A stretch of 64,000 nt of DNA from Rhodocytophaga aerolata. GTDB lineage: Bacteria > Bacteroidota > Bacteroidia > Cytophagales > 172606-1. How positions within the stretch are numbered: the stretch's first letter is position 1; each line of letters begins with the position of its first letter. A program made the position numbers and the translations under genes. Shown here piece by piece: positions 2,671 through 4,190 of this stretch. The notes below the pieces were generated by a model that was not told the DNA's origin, ran no database searches, and saw only the letters and a program-made list of their open reading frames with translations. The stretch covers positions 62,001 to 126,000 of the forward strand of contig NZ_JAUKPO010000018.1 in NCBI RefSeq assembly GCF_030503435.1. The letters run 5' to 3'.

Positions 2671-3870
2671 ATGTACTTTACATGTTTCCGATGGTTATAT
2701 ATTAATGGCGGCAACGTGGATTTATTAGTAACTATTGGTGCGTGTGTACTGACTTTCTGGCGTCTACTTCCTTTTTTAACGAAGAATCATGAGGCGGTAT
2801 AAGGTGTAAATCACTAACGCTTTTAAATTTAATGCTAGTTTACGTATAAATACTGATAATATGAAGATGAGTATTGATACAAACCGATTTCTCTCTTTTA
2901 CGTAATTAACGCATAGATTTGTTGCCAGCACCAGCTAGTAAAGTTCGTTTGACCTGCTTGCCTTAGAATTAATCTATAACTATTTTGCTTTTTACTGCTA
3001 TTGGCTACCGGATTAGAAATCAATAGTTTCTTGTCTTTTTATAGGTTTACCTGAAATGTAGCTGTGAGGAGCTTTTACTGTATTACCCGATAGGAATGGG
3101 CAATTTTATAAAATTGCTTACTTCTGTCATACCTTTTAATTTAGGGTTGGTTTGTACGTATAGCTCTAAAGGTATACCCTGCCTAATTCATGTGTTACGG
3201 CTTTGCGCTGCAGGGGGCGTGAGGAGTGGCCAACTGTAGTAATTGCCCGGTAGTAGTGTCCAGATATTAATAAATTAGTGGATTTTGCCTAACCAACCCA
3301 AGTATTTTTACAAAGCAGGTTTATTTACTTGTTTCATTTTATAGAGAACCTAATCAACGTGTTTGAATTTAATATCCTTATCTGATATAAGATCGATCAA
3401 CTGAATTTTGGAGTGTATAGAAAAGGGTAAATTTTGCAATCCCTTTTTGGTTCAAGGCCGGCACAAAAGGAGATCTAGGGAACTGAATTTTAACTCTCCT
3501 TCTAGTAATTATTTCGTCCACTACAGTTGTGCTATTTGCTCAAAGTTTTAAAATTTCACTGTAGTATCGTAAGTAGCTTACAACGTAAGCAAGTGGTGTA
3601 AATTTTCTAACTTACAGAAAGAATATTGCCTTAAAGAAAGAGAAATTCAACCGTATTAGCCAGGAAGCCTAACCATATTGTTTACAGGCCGGTTTGTAAA
3701 GAAGACAGTCCCCTCTGTTCAGAACAGGTTAGAAGGTGAAAATGCGAAAGAAAACGGTAAATCTTACTAGAGGAAAAAGCTCGTATAGGTTTACTTTTAG
3801 GCTATTACTTTACAGTCGCTATATTTACTTTATATCTCAACTGCTGCAGCAGATAAAAGGTAGCCAACAA
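2671..3870. other. Gene-free stretch of about 1.2 kb
   Basis: No reading frame with coding character was found on either strand; short frames are broken by frequent stops. The base composition is AT-rich and irregular, with no long direct repeat, transposase remnant or CRISPR-like array that I can see. A 62-codon frame at 3736-3924 runs into the structured RNA and has a composition (MKMRKKTVNLTRGKSSYRF start, no recognisable family) that does not persuade me. The stretch may be the long upstream region of the RNA at 3875 or a decayed insertion. Confidence 0.5.
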
Positions 3871-3874
3871 ACAA

Positions 3875-4190
3875 GTAAGTGTGGCGGAAAGGGAAGACGC
3901 AACGAGGAGATAGTAGAGCCATAGACAAAGCTAGTCGGGGCGCGACCAACAAACAAAGTCTATGTCAACGTTATCTCTGATAGTGATCAAAGCGCCGGTA
4001 TCTTTAGCCGGAAGAGCTTAACGCAAAGCGTATCGTACAGGTTCGACTCCTGTCACTTACAGTGCGTGACATAATAGGGAAAACCAGCAAAGTACAAGCA
4101 GGTAACTACCTATAGTAGGGATAAATACGCTAGCCTATTTAACACCCTCCAGACAATAGCCCCTATCTTTTACAAGTAGGGGCTTTTTCT
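3875..4190 (+). ncRNA. Candidate structured RNA with tRNA-like closure
   Basis: Positions 3875-4061 close like a tRNA. The 7-bp acceptor is GTAAGTG (3875-3881) with CACTTAC (4054-4060). TG and a D-arm GCG / CGC (3884-3900) resemble tRNA-Leu, the loop holding GG and a closing A. The T-arm is ACAGG-TTCGACT-CCTGT (4037-4053). Instead of a 17-nt anticodon arm there are about 130 nt, framed by ACGA (3902-3905) / TCGT (4033-4036) directly beside the T-arm. Inside are nested helices GAGATA / TATCTC (3907-3912, 3972-3977), CATAGAC / GTCTATG (3920-3926, 3958-3964), GTCG / CGAC (3934-3946), plus hairpins with CCGG stems (about 3995-4011) and ACGC-AAA-GCGT (4021-4031). The strand then reaches a strong terminator at 4158-4190. 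The topology recalls tmRNA, but I find no tag reading frame and the length is too short. An interrupted or decayed tRNA-Leu is the main alternative. Confidence 0.5.

Follow-up and report, generated by a model that had tools for sequence, protein, structure and literature searches.

To our knowledge, few bacterial tRNA mimics have been described so far, namely tmRNA, YrlA, a pseudo-tRNA and the rnaC and rnaD RNAs of phage T4. The two T4 RNAs are stable RNAs without an assigned role (PMC9697503; PMC3014915), and YrlA has also been described as mimicking tRNA (PMC8394870). For Bacillus cereus, tRNA-Other is described as a non-translational pseudo-tRNA which acts within a larger regulatory RNA (PMC3399842). 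Within the window, the 64,000-nt stretch of Rhodocytophaga aerolata DNA analyzed here, an element of related design was found at 3875–4061 (+). It probably belongs to a set of three dispersed genes for a small RNA which stands alone, does not decode, derives from tRNA-Leu and is modular in the manner of tmRNA and YrlA. Judged from its sequence, it most likely represents an undescribed tRNA-mimicking regulatory RNA.

Read from the sequence, the element is tRNA-like and closed, spans 187 nt and has the following features:

3870–3881 (+), leader AACAA (3870–3874), common to all three copies, followed by the 5′ strand of the acceptor stem, GTAAGTG (3875–3881), which pairs over 7 bp with CACTTAC at 4054–4060
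3882–3900 (+), U8, G9 and a D-arm of the tRNA-Leu type, with a GCG/CGC stem and a loop carrying A14 and GG, by exact pattern match
3902–3905 (+), 5′ strand of helix P2, ACGA, with its partner at 4033–4036; weak in the paralogs
3906–3978 (+), P3, a long irregular hairpin in the place of the anticodon arm, from the fold and paralog comparison; outer helix GGAGATAG/TTATCTCT, inner helices CATAGAC 3920–3926/GTCTATG 3958–3964 and GTCG 3934–3937/CGAC 3943–3946
3979–3989 (+), linker, conserved as GATAGTGATCA here and as ACAGTRTTCC in the two paralogs
3990–4019 (+), P4, bulged hairpin AAGC-N-YCGG-loop-CCGR-ARGA-GCTT, the best-conserved part outside the tRNA body
4021–4031 (+), P5, mini-hairpin ACGC-AAA-GCGT (ACGC-NNN-GCGT over the copies), where a class II variable arm would sit
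4033–4036 (+), 3′ strand of P2, TCGT, directly abutting the T-arm
4037–4053 (+), T-arm ACAGG-TTCGACT-CCTGT
4054–4061 (+), 3′ strand of the acceptor, CACTTAC, and discriminator A4061 (A73); CCA is not encoded
4158–4190 (+), intrinsic terminator, read from the sequence: 8-bp stem (AGCCCCTA 4158–4165 with TAGGGGCT 4177–4184), loop of 11 nt and T-rich tail

The D-arm fits the tRNA-Leu pattern GTGGNGNAANNGGNAGACNC exactly. This pattern occurs eight times in the 9.07-Mb genome, in six tRNA-Leu genes, the window copy and one paralog (copy B), with the other paralog (copy C) showing one mismatch to it. With U8/A14, G18G19 and a canonical T-loop all present, the window copy carries the acceptor, D-arm, T-arm and elbow bases of a tRNA-Leu, and a folded domain of approximately 150 nt replaces its anticodon arm. 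The terminator was called by reading because its loop exceeds the limit of the terminator scan. A first-pass annotation of this DNA had already described the 187-nt layout closed by a 7-bp acceptor, the tRNA-Leu-like D-arm, the T-arm with its TTCGACT loop and the terminator, and all of these were recovered at the positions given above. The nested interior helices which it proposed (CATAGAC/GTCTATG, GAGATA/TATCTC and GTCG/CGAC) were present, together with ACGA/TCGT, in the unconstrained MFE fold of the window copy with its flanks, which gave the closed form. Its reading of ACGA/TCGT as a tmRNA-like P2 held in part: the helix folds and abuts the T-arm, but it is weak, with 4 bp in the window copy against 3 bp in its paralogs. 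The bulged hairpin at 3990–4019, the mini-hairpin at 4021–4031 and the two paralogs are additional to that annotation.

Both paralogs were detected by BLASTN with the window element and lie on another contig, copy B with 70% identity over 191 nt (E 1e-15) and copy C through its 3′ part (47 nt, E 3e-9). The full architecture, with the same order of parts, is found in all three copies, which measure 193, 196 and 195 nt when their common AACAA leader is counted. The tRNA module, comprising acceptor helix, D-arm, T-arm and the D/T elbow bases, is conserved in all three. Identity among the copies is 83–94% in the acceptor and D-arm and 70–77% in the part that begins with the 3′ strand of P3 and runs to the end, with just 28–50% in the central hairpin. 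In copies B and C the 7-bp acceptor is followed by U instead of A and its pairing extends outward, and the acceptor of copy C pairs only with a bulge. Each copy is intergenic, lies between protein genes and has its own terminator on the 3′ side; the neighboring genes differ from copy to copy. No recognizable promoter was common to the copies, copy B having TATATTTG and the window copy (copy A) merely a near-match. An anticodon arm with a 7-nt loop and a Leu anticodon was absent from the window element, both by ARAGORN and by three-copy comparison, and no consistent anticodon was found across the copies. The missing arm excludes decoding. The ordinary tRNA-Leu set (CAA, GAG, TAG, TAA twice and CAG) is complete elsewhere in the genome, and leucine decoding is therefore independent of the window element.

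The case for a conserved structure is comparative, since the fold of the window sequence alone is unremarkable, with a stability not above that of shuffles (z = 0.13). RNAalifold on the three-copy alignment gave an energy of −34.1 against −17.8 ± 3.7 in 300 column shuffles (z = −4.4), and none of the 300 shuffles reached so low a value. In the hand-set structure 95.7% of cells pair, compared with 26–38% when the partners are slid by 1–3 positions, a control which is weakened because the three sequences are related, all come from one genome and were themselves used to set both alignment and structure by hand. Five pairs show two-sided changes among the three copies against 1.7 in shuffles, which remove relatedness only partly; three of these five pairs fall in P3, and P2, P4 and P5 hardly vary.

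Searches of known RNA families gave no assignment. Rfam returned no match at the window element at the gathering threshold and, at E ≤ 10, only a partial tRNA match (16–18 bits) and terminator-like noise for the three copies; ARAGORN called no gene at the window element. The three copies combine a conserved tRNA-like module with a conserved non-tRNA domain, the composition of a tRNA-mimicking small RNA in general. The suggestion of a novel tRNA-mimicking RNA made in the first-pass annotation is supported by the lack of an Rfam family or ARAGORN gene, by a separate tmRNA and by three structurally conserved paralogs. The annotation had also held that a tmRNA or intron match, or a lack of conservation in relatives, would speak against such an RNA; the former was absent, but relatives outside this genome were likewise absent at the sensitivity used.

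It was also considered whether the element might be a pseudogene, a duplicated tRNA-Leu in decay whose anticodon arm has received random DNA. This is unlikely, although the scaffold is clearly derived from tRNA-Leu, the best R1 matches in relatives are ordinary tRNA-Leu genes and the element is known from one genome only. Decay is at odds with the conserved scaffold, near-constant length and compensatory changes, and with the linker/P4/P5 segment and elbow bases retained in all three copies. The earlier notion of a tRNA-Leu relic accordingly stands for the origin of the element and not for its present state. A non-decoding, leucine-chargeable tRNA, serving as a ligand of LeuRS or as a leucine donor outside decoding, is improbable. 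LeuRS of E. coli needs A73 and the D/T tertiary core and not the anticodon, the anticodon arm being dispensable for charging (PMC9976931). The window copy has A73, U8/A14, G18G19 and a canonical T-loop, and its leucylation may be possible in principle; however, copies B and C have U with outward pairing in place of A73, which makes charging unlikely as the common function of the family.

A tRNA-closed Y RNA serving a Ro60 protein has little probability, although the genome does encode a protein of the Ro60/TROVE type with a YrlA array beside its gene. This gene is unlinked to the window element, the Ro-stem strands of the array (GGTGYCGTA..TACTTCG and GTTRCCC) are intact in none of the three copies, YrlA gave no match to them even at E ≤ 10, and closure is by the acceptor and not by a basal Ro stem. 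The array itself (C125:107.9–109.2 kb; L017 5950–7200, −) lies between the TROVE/Ro60 gene and the next genes and has a tRNA-Lys embedded in it. An intron-bearing tRNA-Leu, from which the insert is spliced out, would account for the layout of D half, insert and T half, but is very improbable: the flanks do not rejoin into an anticodon stem, and ARAGORN with introns allowed left copies A and C without a call and made of copy B an absurd tRNA-Asn. The first-pass annotation had noted that a group I intron would be longer; the element is indeed far shorter than such introns and has no Rfam intron match. Equally hard to credit is a divergent second tmRNA, for which a P2 abutting the T-arm and several helices between D- and T-arm could be cited. 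The true tmRNA of the genome lies elsewhere (79 bits), the window locus has no score with the tmRNA covariance model, and there is a real D-stem with a GG loop. As the first-pass annotation had stated, there is no tag frame, since no reading frame is common to the three copies.

For the preferred reading, a tRNA-mimicking small RNA, the conserved elbow and acceptor suggest tRNA-like maturation and protection. RNase P and the tRNA 3′-end enzymes would trim the transcript at the acceptor, and the tRNA-like elbow may help to process and stabilize the RNA and possibly allow a tRNA-binding protein to dock. The conserved segment of linker, P4 and P5 is likely to be a common effector site, with P3 as the presumed copy-specific part.

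To examine the distribution of the family, an interior-only covariance model (R2) was used, which scored the three copies of this genome at 63–71 bits. The 394 other genomes of the class gave no match, and neither did the 25 relative loci and 80 phage loci tested. A pattern search for P4 over 85k species gave five scattered matches, about the number estimated for chance; R1 scored one of these at the hairpin itself only and one at another place. The RNA was not found in the phage and plasmid collections. A synteny comparison in the family gave no homologs either, as the neighbors are not conserved. Since R2 found this genome only and the P4 pattern was at chance level, the family appears to be lineage-restricted at the sensitivity used, where searches over more than 40 genomes had stricter filters and some collections may omit this genome or its nearest relatives. 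R1 matches of 110–162 nt in relatives were rejected as homologs, as they turned out to be YrlA arrays in which the match ran across unit boundaries, arrays next to a protein of the RING_SCO0854 type (absent from this genome) or giant-variable-arm RNAs.

Several RNAs of comparable architecture were seen in other bacteria. Two genomes of a sister genus in the same family carry a single-copy, tRNA-Leu-closed RNA of 125 nt with an insert (L091 about 3045–3175, −; L092 about 3432–3565, −), with a promoter-like box TAACTTTG directly upstream, a terminator directly downstream and a conserved neighborhood. Their Rfam tRNA scores of 28.4 and 27.9 bits are just below the cut-off of 29. The giant-variable-arm tRNA-Leu-like RNAs (L050 5327–6435, +; L051 5740–6853, −; three in L053; two in L054; L057–L062; L065) occur in tandem arrays with up to six copies in one genus. 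They have anticodon-like loops such as CTGTCTC, CGGTCTC and CCGTCCC, without a constant U33, and share GATAAA and GCTAA-type segments which are conserved; a regulator gene which by eye resembles the Lrp/AsnC type adjoins L057 and L061. There were also arrays of tRNA-closed RNAs with inserts and a repeated GGTCAA-N-TTACTTC motif (L056 5292–5898, +; L063 625–1588, +; L064 4255–5157, +), upstream of a protein of approximately 750–800 aa similar to the MXAN_6230/SCO0854 RING family, below the NCBIfam cut-off. These arrays look like a Ro60-independent Y-RNA-like system. At L052 (5955–6892, −), a single genome has three tRNA-Leu-like genes of odd form, and ARAGORN calls one of them a tRNA with an unusual anticodon loop (4-letter ‘cgag’).

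Among phages, a scan of fetched loci from IMG/VR contigs revealed at least 142 distinct long tRNA-Leu-closed sequences in at least 122 contigs (e.g., L217 6702–8344, +; L130 369–1317, +; L297; L334), a set gathered with tRNA-Leu patterns and so covering the tRNA-Leu type only and not its true frequency. They measure about 100–200 nt, with one of 306 nt. A73 is present in 119 of the 142 listed. The acceptor AGTCAGG and a near-constant tRNA-Leu scaffold are common to 88 of the 142, whose inserts are rarely alike and fall into 75 sequence clusters. A strong helix ending 0–5 nt, mostly 2 nt, before the T-arm was found in 72 of the 142 listed, the mean helix score at this place being 13.0 against 10.8 with shuffled inserts; this helix appears to be an enlarged variable arm. 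None of the 142 listed was called as a plain tRNA by ARAGORN. An intron reading of these RNAs was rejected, as intron calls were made for 125 of 142 against 363 of 426 shuffled sequences, with Leu in 15 of 125 and 40 of 363, respectively. The L217 example had no match among INPHARED phages at E 1e-3. The phage RNAs often sit between small ORFs, and among the matches listed 60 of 123 are followed by an open frame whose start lies no more than 60 nt downstream. Promoter-like boxes upstream of them were no commoner than in a control stretch. Because about half have a near downstream frame and there is no excess of promoter boxes, these RNAs may serve as processing sites within operons. It should also be noted that two long phage tRNA-Leu-like RNAs (L219 and L122) seemingly have a second tRNA-like half or a minimal tRNA nested in the insert.

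The phage RNAs and the window RNA appear to share layout only. Tentatively, the window RNA might be a bacterial member of a broad, undescribed class of anticodon-less tRNA-Leu scaffolds, also common in phages, whose near-constant acceptor/D/T part presents a hypervariable or paralog-specific insert. If true, this would be a natural version of the laboratory ‘tRNA scaffold’. A chromosomal family of three copies, in which the tRNA elbow is intact and the anticodon arm missing, and more than 100 similar phage RNAs, which ARAGORN does not call as plain tRNAs, suggest that tRNA gene finders overlook a population of non-decoding tRNA-scaffold RNAs. A testable question raised is which tRNA-binding protein (RNase P, LeuRS, EF-Tu, PNPase or TruB) is engaged and to what end.

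Overall, the window RNA would be a modular tRNA mimic, a tRNA-like module joined to an effector module in the design of tmRNA and YrlA, yet neither of these. With tmRNA (RF00023) it shares the tRNA-like closure, extra helices in the place of the anticodon arm and a helix right before the T-arm, but it lacks a tag frame, has a real D-stem, is half as long and receives no score from the tmRNA model. YrlA (RF02553) is likewise modular, an ncRNA in which a tRNA-like acceptor/D/T module and the effector stem are separate; however, this bacterial Y RNA is permuted and closed by a Ro-binding basal stem, whereas the window RNA is closed by the tRNA acceptor and lacks Ro motifs. As described, tRNA-Other is also tRNA-like and outside translation, and it differs from the window RNA, in which a domain of approximately 150 nt stands in place of the anticodon arm. 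The tandem giant-variable-arm RNAs of other families of the order (L050, L051, L053, L057–L062) have a tRNA-Leu-like body and are non-decoding and multicopy, but keep an anticodon-like hairpin, expand the variable arm instead and have an interior dissimilar to that of the window RNA. In contrast to the window RNA, rnaC and rnaD of phage T4 (species 1 and 2 RNA) are phage-borne; the acceptor of rnaC is imperfect, rnaD has no T-arm match and no sequence similarity was seen. They are nonetheless the nearest described precedents: both are small and stable, they measure 139 and 119 nt and come from a tRNA cluster, and in rnaC a large helix immediately precedes the T-arm.
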